A stretch of DNA of 64,000 nt. Source: Flavobacteriaceae bacterium 3519-10 (GTDB lineage: Bacteria > Bacteroidota > Bacteroidia > Flavobacteriales > Weeksellaceae). The stretch lies in the NCBI GenBank assembly GCA_000023725.1, contig CP001673.1:1994342-2058341 (forward strand). Direction: 5' to 3'. Under the pieces are notes generated by a model, which did no database searches, was not told the DNA's origin, and worked only from the letters and a program-made list of their open reading frames with translations. The translations under genes and the position numbers were made by a program. This document shows, piece after piece, positions 14,320 to 43,962 of this stretch (the stretch's first letter is position 1; each line of letters begins with the position of its first letter).

Positions 14320-14323
14320 CAGC

Positions 14324-16270: not shown

Positions 16271-16292
16271 AGCAATCGATTACACAAATATA
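16271..16292 (-). promoter_or_regulatory. Operator and -7 box for the esterase-CE12 operon
   Basis: Read on the minus strand, a perfect -7 box TATATTTG (16292-16285) is followed at once by the 14-base operator TGTAATCGATTGCT (16284-16271). It lies 51 bases upstream of the esterase ATG. The operator matches the locus consensus TGTAATCGATTACA in 12 of 14 positions and would cover the transcription start. A second AATCGATT core occurs at 16300-16307. Confidence 0.75.
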
Positions 16293-16481
16293 TAACAATA
16301 ATCGATTTTAACTACCCGGGTAAGACGATAATTGACGATTTTCGTGGTTAAAAAATTGTTAATTATATGAATTTCCAGACATATTTGTTTTGCAGTTTCA
16401 ACCTTAACACGCTCTGCTGCTTGTATTTTATTGGTAAATACAAATATTCTTAAATCTTCTTGCGTGTTTAGATAATTAAAA

Positions 16482-16503
16482 TAACTTTGTGTAATCCATT
16501 ACA
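16482..16503 (+). promoter_or_regulatory. Operator and -7 box for the secreted PL1 lyase
   Basis: A -7 box TAACTTTG (16482-16489) abuts the operator TGTAATCCATTACA (16490-16503), which differs from the perfect palindrome only at one central base. A TTG at 16460-16462 lies 19 bases upstream of the box, as expected for the -33 element. The ATG follows at 16535. Confidence 0.75.
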
Positions 16504-16534
16504 TAAATTTAAATTCAATCAAATCTACTGAATT

Positions 16535-19027
16535 ATGAACAGATTTCTATTCATTTTAAGTTGGCTTCTCAGCATTACGCTGATTAATGCGCAGGCTGCC
16601 AACATCACCCAACAAAGCGGCTCGCTGGAAAGCGCCTACGTAAAATGGGATCCCGTAACCGGCGCCGACAGTTATAACGTATATTATTCCGGCGCTGGAA
16701 TTACCGACAGAAAAATTGACACCCAACTGATCCGCAGCTACGGCACCTATTTCCGTGCAGATGTGTTAGGTCTTGCCGCAGGTAGCTATACAATTAAAGT
16801 TGTACCGGTGACAGAAGGTGTAGAAGGAAGCCCCGCGGTTTCAAATCCAATAGAAGTAGTTGCTCATGACCGGAACGGCTTCGCACATCAGGGAAGCAGA
16901 GTGCCCGGCGCCTATAACCTCGATGGTACACTTAAAAGCAATGCAGTTGTAATATATATCACGCAGAATACTAAGAATACGGTTACACTTAACGTTACCG
17001 GCGCTACTGCAAATCCATGTGTAGGTCTTCAGACCATCCTCGACGGTTTTAAAAAAGGCAAAGACAGCAGACCGCTCGCCGTAAGACTCATTGGCAACAT
17101 CACCGACCCGAGCTATCTGCTTAGCGGTGACCTCGTGATTGAAAATAACAACCTTGCAACTGCATCGATGACCCTCGAAGGTGTTGGCGATGATGCCTAC
17201 GCAAACGGTTGGGGAGTACGGATTAAAAACGCTTCAAATGTAGAAGTCCGCAATTTGGGACTTATGCTTACGGATGCGTCCGAAGGCGACAACATTGGTC
17301 TGCAGCAGGGCAATGATCATATCTGGGTGCACAACAATGACCTGTTCTACGGAAAATCCGGTGGTGATGCAGACCAGGCGAAAGGCGACGGCGCAATGGA
17401 CGTAAAAAAATCGACTTATGTAACCCTTTCATACAACCATTTCTGGGACAGCGGAAAAGCGAATCTTTTAGGTTTAAGTGAAGGTACGGCGGCCGGACTT
17501 TATGCCACCTATCATCATAACTGGTATGACCACTCAGATTCTCGTCATCCAAGAGTGCGTTATTACTCAGCACACGTTTATAATAACTATTTCGACGGCA
17601 ATTCAAAATACGGCGCCGGATCTACGATGGGTTCTTCGCTTTTTCTTGAAGGGAACTTTTTCAGAAACAGTAAATATCCAATGCTGACTTCTATGCAGGG
17701 ATCCGATATTTTTTCAGGTCCAGGTACGTTCTCCAGTGAAAACGGGGGTGTGATTAAAGCATTTAACAACACCATGAGCGGACAAAACAGATTTGTTGCT
17801 TACGACGCGGTGAATTATCCTGTAGAATTCGATGCCTATGTTGCCACAAGCAGAGGCGAAGTGCTGAGTTCAGCTATTAAAGCAAAAAAAGGCGGAGCAA
17901 CCTACAATAACTTTGATACCGACGCGGCTCATTATATTAAAAACCTCATCGTTGATGAGCCCGAAGTTGCGAAAGCAAAAGTAATTCAGTACGCAGGCAG
18001 AGTTGATGGCGGCGATATGAAATGGACATTCACCTCGGCTGATGACACTTCATACGATGTGAATACAGGTCTTAGAGACATGCTGATCAACTATAACAGC
18101 AGCATGGTTTATGTTCAGGGAGAAACACCGGTGGTGGTAAGCACGCAGACGTTGCTGATCCCGGAAAATAACGACCAGACCGTGCCGGCAGGAACACCAA
18201 TCCAGAACATGGTATTTACATGGGGCGGAACCGCAAACGATGTTACAGTTGACGGCTTACCAGCATCAGGCTTGACCTTCACGAAGAACATTACCGCTAA
18301 AACCGTAACCATCACTGGTACACCAACTGCCGACATTTCCTTCACAGTAACCACTTCAGGCACTGCAGGTACACCGGTTTCAGGTACTGGAATTGTTACC
18401 ATTGGCGAAGCTTCAACGGAAAGCACCTTCATCCATAACTTCACGACCGATGGCAAAATCAGTTCCTACTACGCTATTTCCGGGAACATGAATTCTACCG
18501 ACGGATCAAACACGTATGACGGTAACATACTAACAAAAAGGCTTAAGATTGAAAGTGCTACCACAATCAACTACACTACAGCTAAGAAATCTACACTTAC
18601 GCTAGTATTCGATCCTACTTTCGCAGGTAAAATTAAACTCAACGGAACCAACTACACAGTTCCTGCAGGCGCCGGCGGAGTGATAACCATCCCTAATGTA
18701 CCGGCGGGTGCCACCCAGATTCTTAAAGGTGATACTGCGAATCTGTTCTACATCAAAACAGTATATGACGACGTGGTTTTAGGAACCGGCGTACAGAACA
18801 CCAGAGCAGAACTCAGTGTATATCCGAATCCGGTTACAGAAACTGTATTCATCAGAACGGATGAAAACGTGAGGAATGTAAGCATCTTCAGCGCCAACGG
18901 AAGTCTGGTAAAATCAGCGGATGGAAACGTGAAATCAATCGATGTACGTGGATTAACAACCGGCATGTATATCGTAAAGATCGTCACACAGTCCGGAACA
19001 GTAACCAGAAAGATCATCAAAAAGTAA
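16535..19027 (+). CDS. T9SS-secreted multidomain pectate lyase (PL1)
   Basis: An 830-residue extracellular lyase. A signal peptide (ends INAQA) is followed by a fibronectin III-like domain (about 22-110). The PL1 beta-helix (about 115-460) carries [28 protein letters not shown] and SDSRHPRVR, the last with the catalytic Arg and the others with calcium-ligand Asp positions. An Ig-like domain (about 540-620) precedes a C-terminal beta-sandwich (about 630-735) ending FYIKTVY. The T9SS type A sorting domain begins [10 protein letters not shown] at about 757 and ends with TRKIIKK. It would cleave demethylated homogalacturonan outside the cell. It is monocistronic, with its own operator upstream and a terminator downstream, and divergent from the esterase operon. 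Confidence 0.93.
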
Positions 19028-19425: not shown

Positions 19426-20244
19426 TTATTTCACTAAAACCTTCTGAGATTTAACACCCTTGTCTGACTGTAGATTTACGATGTAAACCCCTGTTTTCAA
19501 GGCAAAGTTAACGTCAGATTTTGTGTTTAACGCTTTTACAAGCTGACCGTTGGCAGTAAATACATTTACTTTCGTGTCGCCGGAAACGTTAGATACGTAA
19601 ACATTGCCCCCGTCTGCAAATGCGTTGGCAGATACTTTGGTTGCTGCATTACCGGAAGTTGAAAGCGTATTCGAACTTAAAGTCGTTACCACGCTTGCAC
19701 CCGTTACCTCAATTTTGTAGAAATTGATGGCGGCGTCTGTGTAAATGTAAAAAGTTCCTGCAGTTGGGATATTAGCTGTAAGAATCGCAGTATCCGCAGG
19801 AGATGCCGCTGGACTCGTCGCAGCAGAACCGTAAAGAACACTGTTTCCATCACTTACATAAGCAGAACGAACAGCGCCGCCGCTTCCGCTTTTGTACCAT
19901 AATTTCACCGTTGCTGCACCACTTACCTGCACAAAGAAATAACGTTGCTTAGGTTTGTAAGTTCCCTCATCGGCGGAACCTCCACCGTTAGTTTGAAGAC
20001 GGTTTCCTGTAGCCACGTAGCCATCAGAAAAGCTTACCTGCGAAGAGTTTGTAATGGCTCCAAAATTTGTGTTTGTTGCGATTGGATACATTCCTAAGCC
20101 CTGTTTTACGATCGGATTGTTGCCGATACCCGAATTAAGAGGCCAGTTAGTTGAGTCGTTACTGAAGTCCCAGGTTGTAGTCTGCGCATTTGCTGTGAAC
20201 ATAGCCAAAACAGCTGTAAATGCAATTAGTAATTTTTTTTTCAT
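19426..20244 (-). CDS. Small T9SS-secreted beta-sandwich protein, function unknown (paralogue A)
   Basis: A 272-residue secreted protein. A signal peptide (ends TANAQ) is followed by one beta-sandwich module (about 22-180) with TTTWDFSNDSTNWPL at the start, a GNRLQTNGGG loop, KQRYFFVQVSG, TVKLWYKSGSGG and FYKIEVTG. A T9SS sorting domain (about 200-272) ends VKSQKVLVK. It has no catalytic signature I know. The next gene is a close paralogue, and the same kind of module stands at the N terminus of the 1072-residue pectinesterase. A carbohydrate-binding or surface pectin-capturing role is inferred. It has its own operator (20287-20308) and terminator. Confidence 0.85.
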   Translation of the reverse strand: MKKKLLIAFTAVLAMFTANAQTTTWDFSNDSTNWPLNSGIGNNPIVKQGLGMYPIATNTNFGAITNSSQVSFSDGYVATGNRLQTNGGGSADEGTYKPKQRYFFVQVSGAATVKLWYKSGSGGAVRSAYVSDGNSVLYGSAATSPAASPADTAILTANIPTAGTFYIYTDAAINFYKIEVTGASVVTTLSSNTLSTSGNAATKVSANAFADGGNVYVSNVSGDTKVNVFTANGQLVKALNTKSDVNFALKTGVYIVNLQSDKGVKSQKVLVK

Positions 20245-20286: not shown

Positions 20287-20308
20287 TACAATCGATTACA
20301 CAAATATA
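20287..20308 (-). promoter_or_regulatory. Operator and -7 box for paralogue A
   Basis: On the minus strand, TATATTTG (20308-20301) directly precedes TGTAATCGATTGTA (20300-20287), 12 of 14 to the locus operator. It lies 43 bases upstream of the ATG at 20244. Confidence 0.75.
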
Positions 20309-20456: not shown

Positions 20457-21254
20457 TTACTTCACACTCACTTTTTGAGATTTAACACCTTTAGCAGATT
20501 TCGTATTTACAATATAAACACCTGTCTTTAAAGTAAACGCAACATCGGTGTTAGCCTGTAAAGATTTTACCAGTCCGCCTGTGATGCTGTATACCGAAAT
20601 GTCGGTAGCTGTTGTGATATTCGAAACACGAACTTCGCTTCCGTTCGCAAAGACCTTTGTTCCAGCGTTGTTAATGTCGCCAGTCGCCATTGTGGCGCCG
20701 GTAACGGTTATCTTATATATATTGCAAGACGCGTCTGCAAAGACATATAGCCTTTCGTTACCTGATGAGGTTTTGTTGGCAGTGAAGATTACACCTGTAC
20801 CGGCGGTATCTGTAGCAGCCTGACCTAAAACCGTTGAACCGTTAGTTACAAAAACCGTTCGCGAGGAACTGTTACTGCCAGACCGGAACCAAACAGTTAC
20901 GGTCGCTGTGCCGGTTACATCAAAATACATATAACGCTGGGTTGGCAAAGGCACGAAACCGGTACTTGATGTATAACCCGCCCCGTTAAGCTGAAGGCGG
21001 TTTGCACCGGTATAACCATCGCTGAACGTGTAGGAGGTCGCAGTAATAGCAGCAAAATTGGTAATTGACCCGTCTGACTTACTGAAAAGACCTAACTGAT
21101 CTACCGTTTTTTCCGGAACGCCTGTACCCGCACTTAGCGGCCAATTGGCCGTGTCATTAGCAAAATCCCATGTTTTCGGCATTGAAATCTGGGCGTTGGC
21201 AGTTGAGGTGATACTTATGAGACCCATCAACATAAAAAGTAAAGTTTTTTTCAT
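20457..21254 (-). CDS. Small T9SS-secreted beta-sandwich protein, function unknown (paralogue B)
   Basis: A 265-residue paralogue of the protein at 19426-20244. The signal peptide (ends TANAQ) is followed by PKTWDFANDTANWPL, the loop ANRLQLNGAGY, PTQRYMYFDVTG, TVTVWFRSGSNSS and IYKITVTG in the same order as paralogue A. A T9SS sorting domain ends VKSQKVSVK. The two proteins align over their full length with conserved Trp, Arg and aromatic positions but differ in the loops, so they may bind different pectin structures (inference). It is monocistronic, with its own operator at 21300-21321 and terminator at 20393-20425. Confidence 0.85.
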   Translation of the reverse strand: MKKTLLFMLMGLISITSTANAQISMPKTWDFANDTANWPLSAGTGVPEKTVDQLGLFSKSDGSITNFAAITATSYTFSDGYTGANRLQLNGAGYTSSTGFVPLPTQRYMYFDVTGTATVTVWFRSGSNSSSRTVFVTNGSTVLGQAATDTAGTGVIFTANKTSSGNERLYVFADASCNIYKITVTGATMATGDINNAGTKVFANGSEVRVSNITTATDISVYSITGGLVKSLQANTDVAFTLKTGVYIVNTKSAKGVKSQKVSVK

Positions 21255-21299: not shown

Positions 21300-21321
21300 T
21301 TCAATCGATTGCACAAATATA
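21300..21321 (-). promoter_or_regulatory. Operator and -7 box for paralogue B
   Basis: On the minus strand, TATATTTG (21321-21314) is followed by TGCAATCGATTGAA (21313-21300), with the invariant AATCGATT core and TG start. It lies 46 bases upstream of the ATG at 21254. Confidence 0.7.
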
Positions 21322-21432: not shown

Positions 21433-22770
21433 TTATTCTTTTATAAAATTCAAAGGAAATGACCTGTCGCCATGTTGCAGCCTTCCATAGTAGGCGCCTT
21501 TTGGCAGATGACCAATATCGATGTTCAATCTGTTACCCGCCATTTTTGGCGCTGATGACGTGAAAACCTTCTTTCCGTCAACGGCGTAAATCTCTACAAG
21601 CATCGAACTGCTTTTTACACCGGGAACTTCAATGTTAAGAATATCCTTCACAGGAACCGGGTAAAGTTTCACAGCTGCCTTACTGATGTTTGCTGTCCCC
21701 ATATTGGAGCACTGTCCTGGCGTTATAACGCCGGCAGTACTTACCTGAAGTGTGGCTCCTGCTCCACAGGTCGCGTCTGCGACATACTTTGCCACATCAG
21801 CAACCGGCATCACCGTGTATGCATAATTCGGCGGACTTACAGTTCCGATATTCATCGATCCGGGGACAGGTGAAGTTCCCGTAAGACTGTTCACAAAGTT
21901 GATCGCGATAGAACCGCCATCGCTGGAAACATAATTTTTAAAGTACGATGAAATTTTGGCAAAGTGTGTATTCTCAACAAATACAGTCGAATTGCTTACG
22001 CCGCCGCCCAAACCGATTCCTACAGCACCCGGTACACTCGTGTAGTAATAAGAATTCAGGATATGAAGTTGCGCATTGCGCGCACGTGGCATTCTTTCGC
22101 GGGTTCCTTCGCCCCAGTAATTGCTTTGGTACGTAATACTGTAGTGGCCATCAGCGGGTTTGTCCGTCGCGCTCGATCCAACGAGGTTCGAAAAACGGTG
22201 GTCATTACTCCCGCCCGAACCGCCCGGTACCGGAGGTTTCAGATAAGTGAACTTATTCCAGGAAATGGTGATGTTGTCCGACTGTCCTACATTATCGAGG
22301 TTTCCATCCTGCCCATCCTGAAATTCGCAATGATCGATCCATACATTTGTCCCGCCTTGGTTCGTGAGATTATCCTGACCGTTGTTGTCATATGCTCCCG
22401 GACCTACGAAAATCAGGTTTCTGATGATGATATTGTTGGATCCGTTTTTTAAATTAAGAATTCCGGACCCTGACAGGTTTTCGTTCACGAGTTTAGCGCC
22501 GGGCAATCCGATCAGCGATTTATTAGAAATAACCGCGCTGATCTGCTGATTGGCAGGAATATTAATTACGCCTGAAACCAAAATTACGCGAGGCCCTGCA
22601 GCTGTTAAATTTGTACGTAATGAGGCGAAATCGGAGACAATTACCGGCGCCGCAGTTCCACCTCCCGTTGCTGCTGCGCCGTAACCTTCTGGCACTGCCT
22701 GGTACGGAACCTGCGCATGTGCAGTGGATACCGCCAGGAAGCATGCAGCAATAAAAAATATTTTCTTCAT
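21433..22770 (-). CDS. T9SS-secreted pectate lyase (PL1)
   Basis: A 445-residue extracellular lyase with a signal peptide (ends STAHAQ). The PL1 beta-helix (about 30-330) carries NVWIDHCEF, DGNLDNVGQSDNITISWNKF and GTRERMPRARNAQLHILNSYYY with the catalytic Arg region. A T9SS-type tail begins VKLYPVPVKDILNIE at about 366. It is much shorter than the PL1 at 16535 and lacks its fibronectin and Ig modules, so the two may differ in attack pattern. It is the last gene of the GH28-susCD operon, 70 bases after the pectinesterase gene with a hairpin between. It has no operator of its own. Confidence 0.92.
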   Translation of the reverse strand: MKKIFFIAACFLAVSTAHAQVPYQAVPEGYGAAATGGGTAAPVIVSDFASLRTNLTAAGPRVILVSGVINIPANQQISAVISNKSLIGLPGAKLVNENLSGSGILNLKNGSNNIIIRNLIFVGPGAYDNNGQDNLTNQGGTNVWIDHCEFQDGQDGNLDNVGQSDNITISWNKFTYLKPPVPGGSGGSNDHRFSNLVGSSATDKPADGHYSITYQSNYWGEGTRERMPRARNAQLHILNSYYYTSVPGAVGIGLGGGVSNSTVFVENTHFAKISSYFKNYVSSDGGSIAINFVNSLTGTSPVPGSMNIGTVSPPNYAYTVMPVADVAKYVADATCGAGATLQVSTAGVITPGQCSNMGTANISKAAVKLYPVPVKDILNIEVPGVKSSSMLVEIYAVDGKKVFTSSAPKMAGNRLNIDIGHLPKGAYYGRLQHGDRSFPLNFIKE

Positions 22771-22791
22771 ATGATTTATTTAGGAAAAATA

Positions 22792-22823
22792 TTCCACGGA
22801 ATAGCATATAAAATCCCGTGGAA
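22792..22823 (-). repeat. Intercistronic hairpin between CE8 and PL1 genes
   Basis: Inverted repeat TTCCACGG (22792-22799) / CCGTGGAA (22816-22823), 8 bp with a 16-base loop and no T run. It could protect or process the polycistronic mRNA rather than end it (inference). Confidence 0.55.
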
Positions 22824-22840
22824 GCATCTTTCGTTAATTA

Positions 22841-25800
22841 TTAATTGGTTCTTAACTTTACACTTTTCGTGCCTTTGTTATTCTGTACTGTTACCAGCCA
22901 AATACCTGCAGGCAGTGTGAAGTTTGTGTCTTTCGACGTGTTTAATGTTTTGTAAAGCAGACCGCTCATCGTATAAACTTTTACAGCCGTTTCACTTTTT
23001 ACCGCCTTTACAAATACTTCATTCTTCACCGCATAAACAGCCGTACCGTTATCAGTTTTTACAACTCCTGTGGACAATGTAATGTCGTTAAACGGATCCC
23101 AGCCATCATTTCCTTTGGTGAAATTCAAAGTGGTGATCGAAGTTCCGTCCGTAAGTACAGGTTGGGAAAGTGATGTTGCCCAGGTCGCGCGGCTTCCGGA
23201 ATTATTTACACCCGAAAGTTCCGTCGTGCCGTATTCGTACATGCCCGGAGAAGTTCCGCCGAGTGAATTCTGCCAACCGAGCGGCAATACAAGAGACTGA
23301 CCTACAAATCCAGGGAAATCACTTGTTTCAATTGTGGTATTGTAAAACACAGCTTCACTTGTATTCGCGGACCATGGACGGCCAAAATAACCCGGTTTCG
23401 AACGGTACGCAGAAGCAGTTTGCGTAATAGGCTGCGCTGAAGTGATGGTTGTGTTATACATTAAGAATCCTCGTCCGCTGGTCTGCTGCGGCGCAACGAT
23501 GTATGAAAGATCACTGCTCTGGTCGCTCGTGTTCATTACGAGTTTCGTTTCGTAAAACACGGCAGTCATTCCACCAAAGATGAAATCTACTGCACCCATT
23601 ACGTCGCCTCTGTAAACAGCCACACGTGCGCCCTGTGCGCCGTAGAATGTATCCTGACGGCCAATAATTCGGCAGTTTTTAAGAAAAGCACGGTCCCCAC
23701 TTGCGGTGATAGCTAACGCTGCAGCTCTTTCAACAAGCGTTTTGTTCTGAACTGATGTATTATTTAAATTCGAAGGCCTGGCACCCGGACTTCCTGAAGC
23801 CCATGGAACCACAACATCCTGGGTTTCTTTTGTTGAAATATATTGGTTGAATGAATTTTCGAAGATGATATTCTCGGCTTCAAAGCCTTTGGCATTCAGC
23901 ACCACGGTAGCATTCCAGAACGATCCGTTTGTTGTGCCTGCGCCGGTGTTTGTGTACGAATAAGCTCCGTTTTCTTTGTTTACATTCAACACTTCTTCAT
24001 TCCATTTCTGGTTTGCACCCATGGAATAGTAATTATAGCCGTGGCCATAGTACGAAGTGATGCGCACGGCGTTTGGCGATATTTCGGTTCCCTGATTAAG
24101 GATATCGGTACCTGGAGCTGAGGATGCATTTTTTAATGTCACATTCGGCTGGCTGATCACAAGCATTTCCTCGTAGTTGCCCGGATCGATCGAGATCGTC
24201 ACGCGTTGTCCTTCCGTTCTTGTCATGTTCGACACCGCAGTCAATGCTGCGTTAACTGAAGCGTACTGTTTGCCGGGACCAACAGTTAACTCGGCGGCGT
24301 ACGGCACATTAGGAATGGTTCGGATTTCAGTGAAATAAGATGTTGAACCCGCTGCACCACCCATTGCTACAGTTACATTTCCCGCGGAAGCCCCAGTGTA
24401 GGCATATTCCATTGTTTCTGTAATAGAAGTGGAATTAGAAGCTGTAGAAAATGTAGCGCCGCCTTCAACCGAAAAATTAGCTGAATAATAATAAGACACC
24501 ACCACTTTTTCACCCGGATTTACAGGCACCAAAAGCGTTGCTCCCGGTTTAGCCGTTAAATGCCCTGATGCCGGAACTGTAGTAACCTGACCATTAAGCT
24601 GCATGCCTTTGTAATACGCTGATGTAGAAGTGTTAATCTGCTGATCATCAAATGACCAAACGGTTACAGGTTTAAATGAAATCGACTTATTCACCGCAGC
24701 GCCGTTAACCGTTAGGTTTGAGGTCAGTGACATTTCCACAGGGAAATTATCGAGTCCGGAAACCGATATTTTGTATACTCCATTTCTCAGCGTAATATTC
24801 TGAAGATCTGAAAAACTGTACACGTAGCCAGGTTCGTTCAGGTTTGTCAATGTAACGTTTAATGCGGCCTGTTGCGCTGTACTTAGCCCGCTAACATCCA
24901 GATTAACCGCATATTTTGGTTTTTCCGCAAAGTTGAGGTTATAAGTTGTGTCGCCGGTTATTGTTAACGTATTATTTGTGATTTCATAATCGTTTACTCC
25001 AGATGCTGAAACCGCGTACTGAATATTCGGAGCCAGCTGTACTGAATAGGTTGACGCAGCTGAATTCACCACAGGGCTCGGTACATAAATACTCTCACTT
25101 GCAGGATCTGGCGTAAATGTGAGTGTTAAGTTAGAAATCTGACTGGCAAGTCCTGTGATATTGCCTGTAACCGTATAAAGACTTACTGAAGCAACAGAAA
25201 TATTGTGGGTTAGTATATTTGAAGCGCCAACAGTGCTGAAATTTTCGCCTGAAGTAACGATAAATCCGCTCGCATCCGCCAAACTTACACTATAATCAAA
25301 TCCCACTGGTAAGTTCACCTGATAAGCATTTGTACTTACAGGCACACTCCAGCTCTTCCCCGCAGCGTTTGTGAAAACGAGTGAATATCCAGCCGGAATG
25401 CCTGCAGCCTGCGAAACATCGACGGTTCCCGATACGGAGGTGTACACTGCGGCTTTGCGGTAAATGCGGTAAAAACTTCCTTTAGCCACCGCATCATAAA
25501 TAAAGTAAGTACCGGTTTGTTTTGCAACAAATGTAGCTTCTGTAACAGCTCCCGAGGTAGTGGTAGTGGGGAATTTATCATTCTGAACAGCCGCATCGGA
25601 CGCAAAACTGAAAGTAAGGTTTCCAGCGGTATCGCCTCTCGAAATTACTTTTACCTCATCGTCCGCGTTAAGAGTCATTCGGAAATACCTCGCGTTGGGC
25701 AGACCCGCGGTGACGGTAGGAATCGCATTGCAGTACAATCTGCCGGTGTACGACGTAACGGACGCAATGTTTTCGTCATAACGCGTCAATGCAGGGTTCG

Positions 25801-26059
25801 TGGTCCGCAACCTGTCGTTGTTACCACCCGTCCACGAAAGTTCGCCTGCAGTAAAGGTGGAAGGAAAAACATTAGATGTACTTGCAGTTCCCGGCGTAAT
25901 AGCAGGGTTATACCACGAATTGATCACTGAAACGGTGAGTTTGTTATTGTACTGCGCAGGATCCAGCTGCTGCGCTCCGAAATCCCATACATCGGTGAGC
26001 TGCCCAAAAAGCGACATCACCGGAATCAGGAGATAAATTAAGAGTAAATTTTTTTTCAT
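22841..26059 (-). CDS. Large modular T9SS-secreted pectinesterase (CE8)
   Basis: A 1072-residue extracellular enzyme. A signal peptide (ends SLFGQ) is followed by a beta-sandwich (about 20-200, starting TDVWDFGAQQLDP) resembling the two small T9SS proteins nearby. Next come carboxypeptidase-regulatory/CNA-like beta repeats (about 205-460) and a second beta-sandwich (about 470-585). The CE8 beta-helix (about 586-980) carries GRQDTFYG, VDFIFGG and FGRPW, with the catalytic Asp pair and Arg. A T9SS tail ends KSVKLRTN. It demethylates pectin outside the cell, exposing polygalacturonate for the PL1 lyases. It follows susD, with a strong terminator between them. Confidence 0.92.
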   Translation of the reverse strand: MKKNLLLIYLLIPVMSLFGQLTDVWDFGAQQLDPAQYNNKLTVSVINSWYNPAITPGTASTSNVFPSTFTAGELSWTGGNNDRLRTTNPALTRYDENIASVTSYTGRLYCNAIPTVTAGLPNARYFRMTLNADDEVKVISRGDTAGNLTFSFASDAAVQNDKFPTTTTSGAVTEATFVAKQTGTYFIYDAVAKGSFYRIYRKAAVYTSVSGTVDVSQAAGIPAGYSLVFTNAAGKSWSVPVSTNAYQVNLPVGFDYSVSLADASGFIVTSGENFSTVGASNILTHNISVASVSLYTVTGNITGLASQISNLTLTFTPDPASESIYVPSPVVNSAASTYSVQLAPNIQYAVSASGVNDYEITNNTLTITGDTTYNLNFAEKPKYAVNLDVSGLSTAQQAALNVTLTNLNEPGYVYSFSDLQNITLRNGVYKISVSGLDNFPVEMSLTSNLTVNGAAVNKSISFKPVTVWSFDDQQINTSTSAYYKGMQLNGQVTTVPASGHLTAKPGATLLVPVNPGEKVVVSYYYSANFSVEGGATFSTASNSTSITETMEYAYTGASAGNVTVAMGGAAGSTSYFTEIRTIPNVPYAAELTVGPGKQYASVNAALTAVSNMTRTEGQRVTISIDPGNYEEMLVISQPNVTLKNASSAPGTDILNQGTEISPNAVRITSYYGHGYNYYSMGANQKWNEEVLNVNKENGAYSYTNTGAGTTNGSFWNATVVLNAKGFEAENIIFENSFNQYISTKETQDVVVPWASGSPGARPSNLNNTSVQNKTLVERAAALAITASGDRAFLKNCRIIGRQDTFYGAQGARVAVYRGDVMGAVDFIFGGMTAVFYETKLVMNTSDQSSDLSYIVAPQQTSGRGFLMYNTTITSAQPITQTASAYRSKPGYFGRPWSANTSEAVFYNTTIETSDFPGFVGQSLVLPLGWQNSLGGTSPGMYEYGTTELSGVNNSGSRATWATSLSQPVLTDGTSITTLNFTKGNDGWDPFNDITLSTGVVKTDNGTAVYAVKNEVFVKAVKSETAVKVYTMSGLLYKTLNTSKDTNFTLPAGIWLVTVQNNKGTKSVKLRTN

Positions 26060-35312: not shown

Positions 35313-35323
35313 GATTCAAATAT

Positions 35324-36793: not shown

Positions 36794-36795
36794 TA

Positions 36796-38334
36796 TTAAT
36801 CTTTTATTACTTTATAGGTTGGAACTAAGGCTTTCATTACGACCCATGCGATAAGGTAAGCCACCGCGCATACTGAAAATATAATCATATAGCCGGTGTT
36901 GATTCCGTCTGAAATTACCGCACCTGACGCTTTAAGCTGATTGAAAAACTCGTCCGGAATTCTTTCGGTATTGAATTTTGGGTATTTTTCGAGTAAAGGC
37001 ACCGCATCTACCGTCGTCCAGTTCTTATGTGAAAAATCGAAAAGTGCACCTGAGCTTTTATTTATTAAAAAAGATCCGATTCCGCCTGCCATACCACCGA
37101 TTCCGGTAACGGTTGCGATTGCTTTCTTAGGAAACATGTCGCCTACCGTAGAAAAAATATTGGCTGACCAAGCCTGGTGTGCTGCGCCAGCGATACCAAT
37201 GATGATCACCGGGATCCAGTAACTGTAGTTTCCGCCGGGTTGCGCAAGCAGGGCTAATAGCGGAAAGAATGCGAATATCAGCATCGCGCGCATTCGGCCG
37301 GCATAAGGATTTAAACCTAATTTGTCGACAAAATACTTCGGTAGCCAGCCGCCGATAATCGCGAGTAGCGTAATAATGTAGAGCACAAACAGCGGCAGGG
37401 CACTTTCGGTACTGTCCATACCGTAAACTGAACTGAGGTACGCGGGTGTCCAGAACAGGTAAAACCACCAAACGCCGTCGGTCATAAATTTTCCGAATGC
37501 AAATGCCCAGGTCTGACGGTATTTGAAACATTCCTTCAACGTGAATTTCTTGCCGATGTCTTCGCCAGCAGCATTTAACCTGATTGGTTCCCCGTCGATA
37601 TCCTGTTGGATGTACGCAAGTTCGCTTGCATTTACTTTTTTGTGAAGGTGTGGCTTCTTATAATAAAATATCCAGAAACCCATCCACACAAAACCCAACG
37701 CTCCGATAATGATAAATGCCATTTCCCAGCCCAGCGCCTTTGCAATAAACGGAATACTCACTGGTGCAGCCAACGCACCAACCGTTGCACCTGCATTGAA
37801 GATACTTGTGGCAAACGCGCGGTCTTTTTTAGGGAAATACTCGGCGGTAGTTTTTATGGCCGCCGGAAAGTTACCGGCTTCACCAATCGCAAGCACCAAC
37901 CGCGCGAAAATGAAGAGCGTTACACTGGTACTGATGACCAACGAAACATTATTTACAGTAGCAATGGCTTCCTTAGCTTCCGCAAAACCTACGAACCACC
38001 GTCCGGTAAGAAGTCCGGAGGTCGCGATACCGCAGAATGCGTGAAGAATTGCACCAATGGACCAGATGAAGATTGCCCAAAGGAAACCTTTTTTGGTATC
38101 CATCCAGTCGATAAACTTACCTGCCATAAGCATACTTCCGGCATAAAAAATAGAAAATAAAGCTGTAATGTTACCATAATCGTTATTATCCCAATGGAAC
38201 TCGGGCTGCAGATAATCTTTCCAGGTTAAGGACAAGACCTGCCGGTCCAGATAATTAATTGTTGTAGCAAAAAACAGCAAAACGCAGATTGACCATCTGA
38301 AATTTGTTGCTTTAGTTTCGGTATTTTGTGCCAT
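36796..38334 (-). CDS. exuT: MFS hexuronate transporter (ExuT-like)
   Basis: A 512-residue inner-membrane importer of the anion:cation symporter branch of the major facilitator superfamily. The N-terminal TM1 segment NYLDRQVLSLTW, the ARLVLAIGEAGNFPAAIK region and the MFPKKAIATVTGIGGMAGGIGSF motif near TM10-11 identify the ACS/hexuronate subfamily. It would carry galacturonate and possibly unsaturated uronates from periplasm to cytoplasm. It is about 70-80 residues longer than E. coli ExuT. The extra length is an insert before the ARLVLAIGE segment (about 105-140) and an extended loop before the last helix (about 430-475). It lies between kdgA and uxaB in the operon. Confidence 0.9.
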   Translation of the reverse strand: MAQNTETKATNFRWSICVLLFFATTINYLDRQVLSLTWKDYLQPEFHWDNNDYGNITALFSIFYAGSMLMAGKFIDWMDTKKGFLWAIFIWSIGAILHAFCGIATSGLLTGRWFVGFAEAKEAIATVNNVSLVISTSVTLFIFARLVLAIGEAGNFPAAIKTTAEYFPKKDRAFATSIFNAGATVGALAAPVSIPFIAKALGWEMAFIIIGALGFVWMGFWIFYYKKPHLHKKVNASELAYIQQDIDGEPIRLNAAGEDIGKKFTLKECFKYRQTWAFAFGKFMTDGVWWFYLFWTPAYLSSVYGMDSTESALPLFVLYIITLLAIIGGWLPKYFVDKLGLNPYAGRMRAMLIFAFFPLLALLAQPGGNYSYWIPVIIIGIAGAAHQAWSANIFSTVGDMFPKKAIATVTGIGGMAGGIGSFLINKSSGALFDFSHKNWTTVDAVPLLEKYPKFNTERIPDEFFNQLKASGAVISDGINTGYMIIFSVCAVAYLIAWVVMKALVPTYKVIKD

Positions 38335-38352
38335 AGTGGTAAGTTATTTCGT

Positions 38353-39018
38353 TTAAGAATTTTTAACTGAAGAGACTATTTCTAAAACTTTTCTGGTTTC
38401 GTCTTCCATCTGATCGTAAGCTTTATCGGCCATCAGTTTTTTGCTGATGAGCTTGCTGCCCATACCAACTGCAGAAACGCCGGCTTTAAACCAACCTTCA
38501 ATATTTTGGCGGGTTGTATCTACACCACCAGTTGGCATAAACAGAAGGTTCGGAAAGATGTCTTTAATTCCGCTCAGGAAATCAGGGCCTAACATATTTC
38601 CTGGGAACAGTTTAATAAACTTCACACCTGCATTTTCAGCCGCGATAATTTCAGTTGGCGTCATGCAACCCGGGCTGTAGAATTTATCCTGCGAAATAAG
38701 GAAATCTGCAACTTCGGGTACGAAACCCGGACTGATGAAGAAATCTGCGCCAGCATCAACAAAATCTCTTGCCTGCTGAAGATTCTTGATCGTACCGATG
38801 CCTAAAAGCAAATCAGTCATTTCAGCGTCTCTGGTTTCTACCATTTTTCTGAAATTGTTCAAAGCTGCTTCACCGCGGTTTGTGTATTCTACGGCACGGA
38901 TCCCGGCGCGATAAATTGCGCGGAGGGTTTCTATTGTAATAGTTTCGTCAGCATTAAAGTACAGGGGTAAAATTCCCTGCTTAACGATTGCATCTGAAAC
39001 TTTCTGAATATTGCTCAT
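38353..39018 (-). CDS. kdgA: 2-keto-3-deoxy-6-phosphogluconate aldolase
   Basis: Splits KDPG into pyruvate and glyceraldehyde-3-phosphate, ending the uronate pathway. The 221-residue class I aldolase has VEYTNRGEAALNNF (catalytic Glu position), DAGADFFISPGFVPEV, KLFPGNMLGPDFL with the Schiff-base Lys (about residue 136), and MPTGGVDT. Length is normal for Eda/KdgA. It is 11 bases after the YhcH-family gene and 19 bases before exuT. The name eda would be equivalent. Confidence 0.95.
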   Translation of the reverse strand: MSNIQKVSDAIVKQGILPLYFNADETITIETLRAIYRAGIRAVEYTNRGEAALNNFRKMVETRDAEMTDLLLGIGTIKNLQQARDFVDAGADFFISPGFVPEVADFLISQDKFYSPGCMTPTEIIAAENAGVKFIKLFPGNMLGPDFLSGIKDIFPNLLFMPTGGVDTTRQNIEGWFKAGVSAVGMGSKLISKKLMADKAYDQMEDETRKVLEIVSSVKNS

Positions 39019-39028
39019 TGTACTTTTA

Positions 39029-39478
39029 TTAAATCTTTACTTTAAATACTAATTTTCTGATCACGTCTTCGCCAATCATCGGCGCGTGCACATCGCCTGG
39101 ATAGAAAATCACAAACTGACTGTCCTTCAAATTAAAAAACATATCAGGTTCGTCTGCGAAAAAGAGAACGTCTTTAACCGGATCATACTCCCCTTTTGGC
39201 TGTGAACAGTTCTCGCGCGGTTTCCAGCCAATGGTCTCCGCACCTTTTACACAAATCTGAATATCAATGCTTGCATTGTGACATTCGAATTTCTGTAAAC
39301 TTTCTTCAGGCGTCTTTCCATTTTTCTGGCTTACAATTACTTTCAGGCCGTCTTCGATCTGAATAGTACCCTCTGGCAAATTCATCAGATTATTTTCATT
39401 CACAAACTCAAATGCCTTAGAAAATAATGGATGCAGGTCGTGATAGGTAGCAGCGTTATGCAGAGAATCTATAATCAT
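39029..39478 (-). CDS. YhcH/YjgK/YiaL family protein
   Basis: A 149-residue cupin-like single-domain protein of the DUF386 (YhcH/YjgK/YiaL/EbgC) family. Landmarks are DIQICVKGAETIGWKP (about 80-95), a metal-binding-like acidic/His set including FFADEPDMFFNLKDSQFVIFYPGDVHAP, and a C-terminal RKLVFKVKI. Family members sit in uronate, sialic acid and arabinose operons and are suspected sugar epimerases, mutarotases or isomerases acting on open-chain or anomeric forms, but activity here is unproven. It is embedded between kdgK and kdgA, so a role with a galacturonate-pathway sugar acid is likely. Confidence 0.85.
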   Translation of the reverse strand: MIIDSLHNAATYHDLHPLFSKAFEFVNENNLMNLPEGTIQIEDGLKVIVSQKNGKTPEESLQKFECHNASIDIQICVKGAETIGWKPRENCSQPKGEYDPVKDVLFFADEPDMFFNLKDSQFVIFYPGDVHAPMIGEDVIRKLVFKVKI

Positions 39479-39486
39479 GGCTCAGT

Positions 39487-40527
39487 TTATCTTGCGACAC
39501 GGCCAGATGCATCACCGCCCATCAGTTTCATCACTTCATCTACCGTCACCAGATTTGCGTCACCTTTGATGGTATGTTTAAGGCATGAAGCTGCCACCGC
39601 AAAATCGAGTGCATTCTGGTCGTCATCAGGATAAGTAAGTAATCCGTAAATCAGTCCGCCCATGAACGAATCTCCGCCACCAACGCGGTCTACGATATCG
39701 GTGATCTGATACTGACGTGTCTGTAACATTTCCTTACCATCGTATAAAACGCCGGCCCAGGTATTGTGCGAAGCTGAGATCGAACCTCTCAACGTTGTGA
39801 TTACTTTTTTGGCTTTCGGGAATTTTTCCATCATCTGCTGGCAAACCGAAAGAAACGCTTCTGCTTTCACATCGTGACCGTGTGTCTGAACCGCCGCGCC
39901 CTCGGGCTTGATGCCGAAATGCATCTCAGCGTCTTCTTCATTACCAAGAATGATGTCGCAGTATGAAGTAAGTTCAGTCATAATTTTTTCTCTGTCGCCA
40001 CCGTATTTCCACAGTTTAGCCCTGTAATTGAGGTCTGTAGAGATGGTAAGTCCGAGTTTGCTCGCCGCTTTCACTGCTTCAAGACATACATCCGCAGAGC
40101 TTTGGGAGATTGCAGGTGTAATTCCGGTCCAGTGGAACCATTCAGCACCCTCAAAAACTTCTTCCCAGTTAACCATTCCGGACTGAATCTCGGCCATGGC
40201 TGAATGCGCGCGGTCGTAAACCACTTTGCTTCCACGGGAAACTGCGCCTGTTTCAAGGAAATAAATCCCAAGACGGTCTCCGCCCCAAACGATTTTATCT
40301 ACGCCAACGCCTCTTTTGCGCATTTCCATCATCGCGCACTGTCCAATATCGTTCTTTGGTAAACGCGTTACAAAATCTACCGGAATACCATAATTTGCAA
40401 GGGAAACCGCTACATTGGATTCGCCACCGCCATACACGACATCAAAATTATCGGCCTGCGAAAATCTTAAATAACCCTGTGGTGCAAGCCTAAGCATTAT
40501 TTCACCGAAAGTAACTACTCTACTCAT
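39487..40527 (-). CDS. kdgK: 2-keto-3-deoxygluconate kinase
   Basis: Phosphorylates 2-keto-3-deoxygluconate to KDPG with ATP. The 346-residue PfkB/ribokinase-fold protein has the N-terminal GGGESNVAVSLANYG (about 32-46) and the C-terminal PfkB signature DRVGGGDSFMGGLIYG with the catalytic Asp in GGGDS. The specificity is inferred from its position between the KdgF-like and kdgA genes, where both pathway branches (UxaA and KduD) deliver the same substrate. It is 9 bases upstream of the YhcH-family gene. Confidence 0.94.
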   Translation of the reverse strand: MSRVVTFGEIMLRLAPQGYLRFSQADNFDVVYGGGESNVAVSLANYGIPVDFVTRLPKNDIGQCAMMEMRKRGVGVDKIVWGGDRLGIYFLETGAVSRGSKVVYDRAHSAMAEIQSGMVNWEEVFEGAEWFHWTGITPAISQSSADVCLEAVKAASKLGLTISTDLNYRAKLWKYGGDREKIMTELTSYCDIILGNEEDAEMHFGIKPEGAAVQTHGHDVKAEAFLSVCQQMMEKFPKAKKVITTLRGSISASHNTWAGVLYDGKEMLQTRQYQITDIVDRVGGGDSFMGGLIYGLLTYPDDDQNALDFAVAASCLKHTIKGDANLVTVDEVMKLMGGDASGRVAR

Positions 40528-40549
40528 CTGTCTATTTTTTGTATAATTA

Positions 40550-40876
40550 TTATGTGTTTAAAAAATCTTCTCTTGCCGGACTGAACGAATCAATTAAAAC
40601 TCCGTCTTCCAGACAAACCACGCCGTGGATCTTATTGGTTGTGATGAAAAAAGAATCGCCTTTTCCCAGAATCACGGTTTCATTTTCAACGGTTACCTCG
40701 AATTTTCCTTCAGCGATATAGGTCGCCTGCGAATGAAAATGCTGATGCAAAGCGCCAACTGATCCTTTCTTAAACCGCACAACCACGATCATCAGCGTAT
40801 CATCATGTCCGACAATCTGTCTTTCGATGCCGTCTCCGACTTTTTCCCATGCATTTTCTGCGGTCTTAAAAAACAT
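40550..40876 (-). CDS. kdgF: Small cupin, KdgF-like (unsaturated uronate linearisation)
   Basis: A 108-residue single-domain cupin. The metal site is HQHFHSQATYIAEGKFEV (about 45-62: two or three His plus Glu), followed by the second cupin motif with GDSFFITTNKIHG. Size, motifs and position next to kduI/kduD fit KdgF, which speeds the opening of 4,5-unsaturated galacturonate to 5-keto-4-deoxyuronate, the KduI substrate. Other small cupins look similar, so the assignment leans on context. It lies between uxaC and kdgK. Confidence 0.85.
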   Translation of the reverse strand: MFFKTAENAWEKVGDGIERQIVGHDDTLMIVVVRFKKGSVGALHQHFHSQATYIAEGKFEVTVENETVILGKGDSFFITTNKIHGVVCLEDGVLIDSFSPAREDFLNT

Positions 40877-40885
40877 CGTTCGTAT

Positions 40886-42286
40886 TTATAAATTAAAATA
40901 TTCTTTAGCGTTGTTGTAAGAGATGTCTGAAACTATTTTTCCGATCCACTCCATATCATCCGGAAGTTCACCGCGTTTAATTTCGTCACCCAAAAGATTA
41001 CAGAGTACGCGACGGAAATACTCATGCCGTGGGAAGGATAAAAAGCTTCGGGAATCTGTGAGCATCCCTACAAAACAGCTCAGCAGTCCCATATTTGAAA
41101 GTGCGTTCAGTTGCTTTGTCATACCGTCCTTCTGATCCAGGAACCACCAGCCGGAACCAAGCTGAACTTTACCTTTCACACTTCCGTCATTGAAGTTTCC
41201 GATCATCGTGGCGAAAACCTCATTATCAGCCGGATTAAGGTTGTAAATTATTGTTTTCGTAAGCTTATCGCTTGAATCTAAACGGTTTAAAAAAGCTGAA
41301 AGTTGCTGCGCCTGCGGAAGGTCACCGATAGAATCCCAACCCGTATCCGGACCTAAAATGCGGTGCATTCTCGCGTTATTATTTCTCAAAGCACCCAAAT
41401 GGAATTGCTGTACCCAACCAACGGCATGATAAGATTCGGCTAGAAAAACAAGAACTGAACTTTGGAATTTCAGGGCTTCCTCAGTTGTAATCTGGCTGCC
41501 TTCTCTGCGTTTTTTGAATATAGCTGAAACCTCATTTTCAGTAAATGAAACAGAATAAATCTGGTCCAGACCATGATCTGAAAGCCTGCAACCGTTTTCA
41601 TGGAAATAGGTAATTCTTTTGGTTAAGGCGTCGCAAAGATCGGTGTACGAATTAATTTGGGTCTCGGAAACTTCGGCCAGCGTATTCAGGTACGCGTTAT
41701 AGCCTTCATTTTCGATGAGAATTGCTTTATCCGGTCTAAAGGCGGTGCTTACTTTAACTTTAAAATCGCCCGCAGCTAATTTCTGATGATGCGCCAAATT
41801 ATCCGTAGGATCTTCTGTGGTGCACACCAATTCAGCGTTCATCTTTGTTAAAAGATTCTGTGTACTGTATTCAGGTGTTGAAATTTTTGCAGAAACTTCT
41901 TCATAAATCTTCTGCGCGGAATTCTCATTCAACAGTTCATAGATATCGAAATATCTCGCGAGTTCAAGGTGAGTCCAGTGAAAAAGCGGATTTCGAACTG
42001 TGTACGGTACCGTTTTGCCCCACTGCAGAAATTTGTCTTTCGCAGATGCATCTCCGGTAATGAATTTTTCGTTCACACCTAAAGTACGCATCGCGCGCCA
42101 TTTGTAATGATCGCCGTTGATCCAGGCTTCAGTAATGTTTCCGAAAACATGGTTGTCAGCGATAAGGGCAGGCGAAAGGTGATTGTGATAATCGATGATC
42201 GGCTGATTCTTAGAAAAGTTATGGTATAACTCTTCGGCGTATTTATTTTCTAATAGAAAGTTGTCGTGAATAAAATTTGTACTCAT
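40886..42286 (-). CDS. uxaC: Glucuronate/galacturonate isomerase
   Basis: Converts D-galacturonate to D-tagaturonate (and D-glucuronate to D-fructuronate), first step inside the cell. The 466-residue amidohydrolase-fold protein has IDYHNHLSP (metal-binding HxH, about 31-39), CTTEDPTDNL, and AFRPDKA. The C-terminal LTDSRSFLSFPRHEYFRR and a final GWWFLDQKDG-containing region are typical. Length matches E. coli UxaC (470). It is 9 bases before the KdgF-like gene and 12 bases after kduD. Confidence 0.96.
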   Translation of the reverse strand: MSTNFIHDNFLLENKYAEELYHNFSKNQPIIDYHNHLSPALIADNHVFGNITEAWINGDHYKWRAMRTLGVNEKFITGDASAKDKFLQWGKTVPYTVRNPLFHWTHLELARYFDIYELLNENSAQKIYEEVSAKISTPEYSTQNLLTKMNAELVCTTEDPTDNLAHHQKLAAGDFKVKVSTAFRPDKAILIENEGYNAYLNTLAEVSETQINSYTDLCDALTKRITYFHENGCRLSDHGLDQIYSVSFTENEVSAIFKKRREGSQITTEEALKFQSSVLVFLAESYHAVGWVQQFHLGALRNNNARMHRILGPDTGWDSIGDLPQAQQLSAFLNRLDSSDKLTKTIIYNLNPADNEVFATMIGNFNDGSVKGKVQLGSGWWFLDQKDGMTKQLNALSNMGLLSCFVGMLTDSRSFLSFPRHEYFRRVLCNLLGDEIKRGELPDDMEWIGKIVSDISYNNAKEYFNL

Positions 42287-42298
42287 TTTCAGTAGTGA

Positions 42299-43084
42299 TT
42301 ATTCTTCGTTCGAAGGTTTTCCGATGGTGGCCAGGATGCCGCCGTCAACATAGATGATTTGCCCGTTTACAAAATCACTGGCTTTAGAGGCTAAAAAAAC
42401 CGCTGCGCCTGCCAAATCTTCGGGGTTTCCCCATCTGCCGGCCGGCGTTCTGCTAATGATAAATTCGTTAAATGGATTTCCGTCAACGCGGATAGGTTCG
42501 GTTTGTGAAGTTGCAAAATACCCGGGACCGATTCCGTTTACCTGAATGTTGTGTTTTGCCCACTCTGTGGCGAGGTTACGTGTGAGCATTTTCAAGCCTC
42601 CTTTTGCGGCTGCATACGCTGAAACACTGTTTCTTCCTAATTCACTCATCATCGAACAGATGTTAATAATCTTGCCTTCATTACGTTCAATCATCTGTTT
42701 AACAACAAGTTGAGACATAATAAAAGGCCCAACCAAATCTACATCGATCACCTTCCTGAAATCGGAAACCGGCATCGTAAGTGCGGATTCGCGTTTAATG
42801 ATTCCGGCGTTATTCACCAGAATATGTATACCTCCAACTTCAACAGTAATTTGGTCAACCTGTTTAGCGGCCTCCACTTCGTCTGTAACATCGAAAATAT
42901 ACCCCCGGGCATTGTAACCTTTGGAATGATAGTAAGCTAACGCATCTTCCATCTTTTGAGGCGTTGTTCCGGTGATGAGCAGGTTTGCTCCGGCAATTGC
43001 CAATGCTTCTGCCATTGCCATTCCGAGACCGTGGGTTCCGCCCGTAACGAGGGCATTTTTATTTTTTAAACTGAATATTTCCAT
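42299..43084 (-). CDS. kduD: 2-keto-3-deoxygluconate oxidoreductase / KduD
   Basis: An NAD(H)-dependent classical SDR (261 residues) reducing 2,5-diketo-3-deoxygluconate to 2-keto-3-deoxygluconate. The Rossmann motif TGGTHGLG is at about 14-21, NNAG near 90, a Ser in ICSMMSELG, and catalytic YAAAK near 157-161. The C-terminal PAGRWGNPEDLAGAAVFLAS is family-typical. Direct coupling to kduI (2-base gap) makes KduD the best call among the similar gluconate-5-dehydrogenases. Confidence 0.93.
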   Translation of the reverse strand: MEIFSLKNKNALVTGGTHGLGMAMAEALAIAGANLLITGTTPQKMEDALAYYHSKGYNARGYIFDVTDEVEAAKQVDQITVEVGGIHILVNNAGIIKRESALTMPVSDFRKVIDVDLVGPFIMSQLVVKQMIERNEGKIINICSMMSELGRNSVSAYAAAKGGLKMLTRNLATEWAKHNIQVNGIGPGYFATSQTEPIRVDGNPFNEFIISRTPAGRWGNPEDLAGAAVFLASKASDFVNGQIIYVDGGILATIGKPSNEE

Positions 43085-43086
43085 GT

Positions 43087-43929
43087 TTATCTTAATTCGT
43101 TTGGTGCACAGATATCCATATCACCATAATCTAAATTTTCACCAGCCATTCCCCAGATAAATGAGTAATTAGAGGTTCCGGCACCGCTGTGGATGGACCA
43201 TTCCGGCGAAAGGACAGCATCATAATTCTGCATGAAAATATGGCGCGTCTGCTGAGGCTCGCCCATAAAATGTGAAATAGTCTGCCCTTGTTCAAGGTCG
43301 AAGTAGAAGTAAGCTTCCATCCTTCTGGAATGCGTATGTGCCGGCATTGTGTTCCAGATATTTCCGGGAAGCAGTTCGGTAAGCCCCATCTGCAGCTGAT
43401 TGGTTTGTACAATACTGTTGACGATCAGCTTGTTTAGAACCCTGCGATTCGCCTGTTTCTCGTCGCCCAGCTGAATCACTTCGGCATTTTCCTTTCCCAC
43501 TTTTTTGGTGGGGAATTTTTCGTGTGCGGGGGCTGAATTGATATAAAAAAGTGCAGGATTTACACTGTCTTTACTTACAAAAAGCACTTCTGCCACACCC
43601 TTTCCGATGTAAAGCGCTTCTTTTTTATCCAGTTCGAATATTTCGCCATCAACATGAATTTCGCCTTTTCCACCTACGTTAATAATCCCGATTTCACGAC
43701 GGTCCAGAAAGTTTTCAGACTTTAGATAGGGAATCGTTTCAAGCGTAAGCTTTTCGTTTAAGGGCATTGCTCCACCAACAATAAGCCTGTCGTACATTGA
43801 GTACACGAGGTTCACGCTGTTTTCGGTAAAAAGATTCTGGATTAAAAACTCACTGCGGAGTTTTTCGGTATCGTAAGATTTTACGTCGGCAGGATTAGCT
43901 GCGTACCTGAAACTAAAATTTGTCTTCAT
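43087..43929 (-). CDS. kduI: 5-keto-4-deoxyuronate isomerase
   Basis: Isomerises 5-keto-4-deoxyuronate, the opened product of pectate lyase action, to 2,5-diketo-3-deoxygluconate. The 280-residue cupin-like protein has the zinc site HTHSRRMEAYFYFDL (about 197-211: two His and Glu) and a third His in SPEWSIHSGAGTSNYSFIWGMAGEN. Length is the same as known KduI (about 278). It is the first gene of the ten-gene minus-strand operon, with the operator and -7 box immediately upstream (43941-43962). Confidence 0.96.
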   Translation of the reverse strand: MKTNFSFRYAANPADVKSYDTEKLRSEFLIQNLFTENSVNLVYSMYDRLIVGGAMPLNEKLTLETIPYLKSENFLDRREIGIINVGGKGEIHVDGEIFELDKKEALYIGKGVAEVLFVSKDSVNPALFYINSAPAHEKFPTKKVGKENAEVIQLGDEKQANRRVLNKLIVNSIVQTNQLQMGLTELLPGNIWNTMPAHTHSRRMEAYFYFDLEQGQTISHFMGEPQQTRHIFMQNYDAVLSPEWSIHSGAGTSNYSFIWGMAGENLDYGDMDICAPNELR

Positions 43930-43940
43930 AATATACTATC

Positions 43941-43962
43941 TGTAATCGATTACACAAAGATA
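43941..43962 (-). promoter_or_regulatory. Perfect operator and -7 box for the kduI-uxaA operon
   Basis: A perfect palindrome TGTAATCGATTACA (43941-43954) directly follows the minus-strand -7 box TATCTTTG (43962-43955), 11 bases upstream of the kduI ATG. No TTG at normal -33 spacing is seen. Confidence 0.8.

Follow-up and report, generated by a model that had tools for sequence, protein, structure and literature searches.

A LacI-family regulator and six start-site operators predicted to control a pectin locus in Flavobacteriaceae bacterium 3519-10

Introduction

The window analyzed here is a stretch of 64,000 nucleotides from Flavobacteriaceae bacterium 3519-10 (GenBank assembly GCA_000023725.1, contig CP001673.1, positions 1,994,342 to 2,058,341 of the forward strand; coordinates below are those of the window), and it carries a pectin locus in which six promoters have a related 14-bp site beside a TAnnTTTG −7 box and one gene, at 32627, encodes a LacI-family protein. 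A preliminary description of this DNA had proposed that the protein represses the locus through these sites. We find that dozens of related bacteria conserve the site-and-box arrangement and that the sites are very likely operators of the LacI-family protein. Regulators of this family with local regulons are an already known kind of system; the open-licence literature that we searched yielded no description of this regulon.

Results

Gene content of the pectin locus

The locus comprises six catabolic units. Some Pfam matches are given here under what we take to be the equivalent CAZy family numbers, for example PL1 and CE8. Unit 1 (10407–16220, − strand) encodes an alpha/beta hydrolase, a DUF4861 protein, a GH88 protein, a pectate lyase/pectinesterase fusion, and a GDSL esterase, and its close spacing suggests a single transcript. 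Unit 2 (16535–19027, + strand) encodes a PL1-CBM77 protein with a type IX secretion system (T9SS) tail. Units 3 (19426–20244, − strand) and 4 (20457–21254, − strand) encode T9SS-tailed paralogues with 44% identity, each preceded by an operator of its own. For the unit 3 protein, the AlphaFold model (mean predicted local distance difference test score 77) resembles the carbohydrate-binding domain of a putative pectate lyase, with template-modeling (TM) scores against 8wc1 and 8x8h of 0.80 and 0.84 by target and 0.47 by query, and the two paralogues are perhaps free-standing surface pectin-binding proteins. Unit 5 (21433–32455, − strand) contains GH28, SusC, SusD, CE8, and PL1 genes separated by gaps of at most 96 bp, which point to one transcript.

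Unit 6 (33699–43929, − strand), also probably a single transcript, encodes KduI, a KduD-like dehydrogenase, UxaC, a cupin, a PfkB protein like 2-keto-3-deoxygluconate kinase, a YhcH-like protein, 2-keto-3-deoxy-6-phosphogluconate aldolase, an MFS transporter, tagaturonate reductase, and an altronate/galactarate dehydratase-family protein. The cupin open reading frame (ORF; 40550–40876, − strand), which lies between the PfkB kinase gene and uxaC and is presumably KdgF-like, encodes 108 residues and fell below the 120-residue ORF cut-off. Because it fills the 358-bp gap at 40528–40885, the stretch from 43929 to 33699 reads as one operon, and an unregulated promoter in that gap was rejected.

The LacI-family protein encoded at 32627

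The regulator gene (32627–33649, + strand) encodes 340 residues with the helix sequence TAATVSRALN and matches the Pfam models LacI (PF00356, 48.2 bits; cut-off 27) and Peripla_BP (PF13377, 115 bits; cut-off 26.5), so that both the N-terminal LacI helix-turn-helix and the periplasmic-binding-protein-like domain of the LacI/GalR family are present. The preliminary description had named it the only regulator in the locus; it is in fact the sole PF00356 match in the 2.77-Mb, single-contig genome. Named relatives at 85–97% identity occur in two Chryseobacterium sp. and in Kaistella soli. The regulator gene has its own −7 box, TACATTTG (32530–32537, + strand). No sign of autoregulation was seen, in that no operator stands at this box in the window or, by eye, in nine upstream regions from the genus; for LacI-family local regulons, autoregulation of the regulator gene is given as 72% of cases (PMC4052901).

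Six probable operators adjoin or overlap exact −7 boxes

Letters of the sites were read on the promoter strand and mismatches were counted against the 14-mer TGTAATCGATTACA. All six sites were found where the preliminary description had placed them, and two of them are perfect palindromes identical to TGTAATCGATTACA: O5 (32466–32479, − strand), before the GH28-SusC-SusD-CE8-PL1 unit, and O6 (43941–43954, − strand), before the uronate catabolic operon. O1, before unit 1, is TGTAATCGATTGCT (16271–16284, − strand; two mismatches); O2, before the PL1-CBM77 gene, is TGTAATCCATTACA (16490–16503, + strand; one mismatch, central CC for CG); O3, before the T9SS-tailed protein gene at 19426, is TGTAATCGATTGTA (20287–20300, − strand; two mismatches); and O4, before the T9SS-tailed protein gene at 20457, is TGCAATCGATTGAA (21300–21313, − strand), the weakest match with three mismatches. 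Each site has an exact TAnnTTTG box facing a pectin-locus gene, whose start lies 11–51 bp past the operator. The box is TATATTTG for O1 (16285–16292, − strand), O3 (20301–20308, − strand), O4 (21314–21321, − strand), and O5 (32478–32485, − strand), TAACTTTG for O2 (16482–16489, + strand), and TATCTTTG for O6 (43955–43962, − strand). Five promoters have box and operator at offset 0, and at O5 the offset is −2, the two overlapping by two bases, as had been claimed. The broader claim that every transcription unit of the locus has an operator stands for the six catabolic units but not for lacI, which has a box without one.

The symmetry of the sites is that of LacI-family operators, whose motifs are described as even palindromes with a central CG for 1173 of 1303 regulators (PMC4052901). 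Central CG is present in five of the six window sites, and O2 has CC in all nine genomes examined. Operator length in the family is given as 16–22 nt (PMC4052901); the conserved core here is 14 bp, with no extra symmetric bases visible by eye in the genus alignment. A further AATCGATT core occurs only once at these promoters, at 16300, and is not common to the aligned relatives.

Enrichment of the site with and without the box

By itself the 14-mer is only mildly enriched. With up to three mismatches it has 10 matches in the window, a number reached by none of 100 shuffles, compared to 3.75 expected, and O4 at 21300 would not stand on the 14-mer alone. With up to two mismatches the whole genome has 16 places compared to 4 for the control: five window promoters, one place in a uxaA-like gene, and 10 elsewhere, all of the latter with two mismatches. 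Given this chance background we rejected the 14-mer by itself as proof. A two-mismatch site at 34064 lies inside a gene and has no listed box.

The combination of site and box is far more specific. The window has 61 exact TAnnTTTG boxes, six of which have an operator with up to three mismatches within two bases, compared to a mean of 0.02 and a maximum of 1 such pair per window in 100 Markov-1 simulations. By the gene list used, 23 of the 61 boxes are intergenic (one of these, at 4751, actually lies within an ORF omitted from that list); the operator accompanies six of them and is absent from 17, including those before mutS2 and glnS. The preliminary description had said that non-pectin boxes lack the operator, and this was borne out for the mutS2 and glnS boxes; its sucD, dusB, and thioredoxin boxes were not identified by name. 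The genome scan for 14-mer plus box that it had proposed gave five matches to TANNTTTGTGNAATCNATTNNA with up to one mismatch, all five within the pectin locus. At exactly two mismatches there were nine: the sixth site, where the box overlaps the operator, the reverse strand of the 16490 site, and seven places elsewhere.

Conservation within the genus

Ten genomes of the genus, that of 3519-10 included, gave 53 sites at the six promoters. Mean column consensus across these sites was 0.91–1.00 for the operator and 0.90–0.96 for the box, with flanks at 0.53–0.72, and the offset was fixed at 0 for the 43 sites of five promoters and at −2 for the GH28 promoter in 10/10 genomes. Box and operator are a conserved island with fixed spacing in these genomes. 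O6 is perfect in 9/10 genomes and O5 in 7/10, being one letter off in the other three. O1 was found in 9/9 genomes examined, with identical letters in eight; O2 is identical in 9/9 and O3 in 6/6 genomes examined; and O4 was found in 9/9, with a variable far half. Missing from the 53 sites are O3 of G014, which reads TGCAATCGATTGTA with a further near-half change and was filtered out of the six-genome O3 alignment, O4 of G012, which was not found, O1 and O2 of G005, which lie on contig C8, and O3 of G031, G032, and G011, where one site of the O3/O4 pair was found. Separately, G031 (L265:3866) and G011 (L266:5142) have a long extra gene beside kduI with its own box and operator; the extra gene in L265 is a Pectinesterase match.

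Operator presence follows the regulator

A LacI protein of at least 70% identity, UxaC, and the combined motif TTTGTGYAATCNATTRNA with zero mismatches occur in the same 10 of 36 genus genomes; the LacI proteins of two others, G010 and G016, have 29% and 27% identity. Many combined-motif matches at unrelated genes would have spoken against the preliminary description. The 36 genomes contain 35 zero-mismatch matches, all of them in the pectin locus or consistent with it (one, on a separate G005 contig). With one mismatch, the ten LacI genomes have 5 matches away from the locus and the other 26 have 16, compared to 7 for the reversed control pattern.

Because UxaC always accompanies LacI in the genus, we sampled 296 genomes at the level of the order, of which 49 have a LacI protein of at least 50% identity, 70 have UxaC, and 48 have an exact TGYAATCGATTRCA. 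Among UxaC-positive genomes, the operator is present in 39 of the 47 with such a LacI protein and in 0 of the 23 without (Fisher p 4e-12, kinship ignored). Operator presence tracks LacI, then, and not just the pathway, in keeping with the assignment made in the preliminary description. Two of the eight UxaC-positive misses (G099 and G224; LacI 62–63%) have CGTAATCGATTACG beside lacI, which differs on both arms and keeps the palindrome.

Of the order genomes, 247 lack a LacI protein of at least 50% identity, and 8 of these also have an exact 14-mer. One site from each of the 8 was examined (one of two in G238). All eight fall within open frames of 193 codons or more, and an exact box is absent throughout, although two have a one-mismatch box at offset −2; they look like chance occurrences. 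Among 22 loci from LacI genomes, one program-chosen locus each, the box is exact in 14 and has up to one mismatch, at offset 0 or −2, in 21, with none at L222. At offset −2 the operator supplies the last two letters of the box, which makes chance boxes easier. Since three of the 22 sites (L230, L232, and L248) lie over open frames of 302–513 codons, frame length alone does not separate the two groups.

Sites in Flavobacterium and at unlinked loci

We also compared 61 named Flavobacterium/Flavobacteriaceae loci with LacI proteins 57–60% identical to that of 3519-10. The operator at the kduI promoter, TGCAATCGATTACA, is identical in 57/57 promoters located with up to three mismatches allowed, and the operator at the divergent promoter beside lacI is identical in 60/60 located with up to two mismatches allowed. 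The kduI promoters of L102, L125, L128, and L143 were not located, and a separate listing shows the same site in L102 and L128. In this set the nn letters of the boxes vary and mean flank consensus is 0.57–0.79; the kduI flanks are fairly conserved (0.78), and operator constancy there is therefore weaker evidence than the genus alignment. The divergent promoter has TAnnTTCG, one letter off the box. A second site lies upstream of lacI in 61/61 loci (L080–L138, L143, and L151), as GGTAATCGATAACA in 50/61, and this site or a variant of it stands 27–28 bp upstream of the lacI −7 box in 59/61, a geometry that differs from that of the pectin promoters. Sites in Zunongwangia and Mesonia about 3 kb from lacI lie within a protein frame and were set aside.

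In other genera, sites also occur at scattered positions. Twelve unlinked sites from G182, G178, G312, G130, and G302 were hand-picked and form a non-random sample; linked or same-region sites in L252, L258, L261, and L264–L266 are outside this count. Nine of the 12 adjoin, at offset 0 or −2, a box with up to one mismatch. Seven of these nine precede PL1-CBM77, SusC, GH28, GH88, Pel9-like, CE8, or PL1 genes. When only exact boxes are counted, 5/6 sites precede pectinase or SusC genes. Of the boxless sites, L263 precedes a SusC gene and L262 a GH10 gene, and nothing was listed for L260.

A boxed operator precedes a GntR-family regulator gene in G178 (L255:2474), which suggests a regulatory cascade there. 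In G130 (L259:2510–2540) a pectate lyase gene has two operators before it, with 17 bp between their starts.

Imperfect operators are conserved

Three window operators keep off-consensus far halves despite diverged flanks: GATTGCT at O1 (8/9 genomes), CATTACA at O2, where the central CpG is lost (9/9), and GATTGTA at O3 (6/6). O4, with its varying far half, is the exception. These imperfect operators do not look like decay. At the Flavobacterium kduI promoter the off-consensus letter is in the near half; thus, the one-sided bias is not general, and promoter-specific constancy recurs. A tentative reading, which we think has somewhat less than even odds, is that the operators are graded on purpose, with one repressor setting an order of derepression. 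Graded affinity is suggested by analogy with the strong and weak catabolite-responsive element (cre) boxes described for CcpA (PMC3463425). If so, the secreted lyase and surface binding proteins would leak or open first, and the importer and catabolism last.

Discussion

We consider it probable, at roughly 0.87, that the LacI-family protein encoded at 32627 is a pectin/galacturonate repressor that blocks RNA polymerase at the start sites through the six operators. Three elements of this view, namely that the sites are operators, that LacI is their regulator, and that they are placed at the start, were each put to a test that they could have failed and passed it. In Flavobacterium psychrophilum, transcript starts mapped in the cited work place TAnnTTTG at −12 to −5 (PMC9723704); start sites in the window were positioned from this spacing, and if it holds here the operators span about −4 to +10, or −6 to +8 at the GH28-susCD promoter. 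Without pectin, a dimeric repressor would occupy each operator, cover the start, and hinder use of the adjoining TAnnTTTG box by RNA polymerase, and an intracellular uronate intermediate would release it. Our best guess for this inducer is 2-keto-3-deoxygluconate, which we favor because the KduI/KduD-like branch from unsaturated uronates and the UxaC, tagaturonate reductase, and altronate dehydratase branch from galacturonate meet there. One regulator would then switch secretion, surface capture, import, and catabolism together.

The LacI-family protein could bind the sites and yet activate, at all or some of them. CcpA, itself of the LacI family, is described as acting both ways by position (PMC3463425), and the second Flavobacterium site upstream of lacI is at a position compatible with activation or looping. 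The six pectin operators, however, cover the predicted start and abut or overlap the box, where a bound dimer should hinder polymerase, and we regard activation as unlikely. That a regulator other than the 32627 protein binds the motif we judge slightly less likely again: the assignment draws on association and family fit, but this protein is the only LacI protein in the genome, site and lacI are jointly present or absent across the 36 genus genomes, the operator tracks LacI among UxaC-positive genomes, and the motif has the even, CG-centered symmetry typical of the family. It is very improbable that the conserved block is a promoter element beside the −7 box instead of an operator. The box-side half is the more constant one in the genus, with 3 mismatches compared to 57 in the far half (raw count over the 53 sites), as such an element might be. 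Yet most intergenic boxes in the window lack the block, O5 and O6 have an exact far half, G099 and G224 carry a symmetric variant that preserves the palindrome, and the imperfection at the Flavobacterium kduI sites is in the near half in 57/57.

Several observations weigh against repression of the locus by the 32627 protein. The site at 21300 is a poor match, with no counterpart of O4 found in G012. Within the genus the coincidence of LacI, operator, and UxaC makes the regulator inseparable from the pathway, and the separation of the two comes from an order-level set of related species. The other 6/8 UxaC-positive misses have 53–54% LacI proteins and belong to genus g22, and five other g22 members (L214–L218) have no operator beside lacI. 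A search for an altered operator common to these five loci beside lacI found none; their LacI proteins read SVATVSR or a similar sequence, in which V replaces the A seen in LacI proteins of genomes with the operator (TAATVSR or SAATVSR). Two exact 14-mer sites in g22 (L247 and L248) have a box with one mismatch. In G169 (L261, LacI 53%) the kduI and SusC sites have no facing box within one mismatch, and the nine boxed unlinked sites include one before a GntR-type regulator gene and one before a weak Sdh_cyt match (L254). Finally, in Gramella flava, which may or may not have this LacI protein, susC-susD of the pectin locus is reported as not significantly pectin-induced, whereas hexuronate genes were induced (PMC5306329).

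If repression by the 32627 protein is correct, the entire pectin locus, secreted lyases and 2-keto-3-deoxygluconate catabolism included, would be switched by a single LacI-type repressor. In two well-sampled genera the operator keeps a constant distance from the −7 box, which is of the unusual Bacteroidota form. The pairing of motif and box is sufficiently specific to nominate regulon members where a genome lacks annotation, and ordered derepression can be tested directly on the imperfect operators that are conserved.

LacI and the lac operator have the same fold, palindrome, and start-site placement; compared to the lac operator, the arrangement here has one 14-bp operator per promoter. CcpA is the closest of the solved structures to the 32627 protein, and the operator fits TGWNANCGNTNWCA, which we take to be the cre consensus and which three published papers contain. 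The cre boxes that CcpA binds with high affinity are described as concentrated at 0 to +7 or near −27, −14, and +44, and Bacillus subtilis cre boxes that are near the start and more palindromic as regulating more strongly (PMC3463425). CcpA regulates globally and has HPr-Ser-P as its partner, whereas 3519-10 has six boxed sites in one locus. Control of polysaccharide utilization loci in the Bacteroidota is mostly discussed in terms of activators, such as SusR and hybrid two-component systems (HTCS), and HTCS regulators are predicted in Bacteroides for pectin loci with SusCD and lyases (PMC3878776). The same source describes LacI-family regulons predicted from shared motifs for KdgR, UxaR, UxuR, and UxmR (PMC3878776). 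These regulators, which are predicted to control the use of galacturonate, glucuronate, or mannuronate, are by description the closest known systems, and the 32627 protein is like them in being of the LacI family and in having its uronate regulon predicted from a shared motif. Periplasmic or extracellular proteins are described as few in the Bacteroides KdgR regulon (PMC3878776); in 3519-10, by contrast, one LacI protein is predicted to act over secreted enzymes, SusCD, transporter, and catabolism. For a regulon of such scope, Bacteroides ManR is a predicted precedent, a one-component regulator placed over extracellular enzymes, SusCD, and cytoplasmic catabolism (PMC3878776); it differs in belonging to the GntR family and in acting on mannosides, not pectin.

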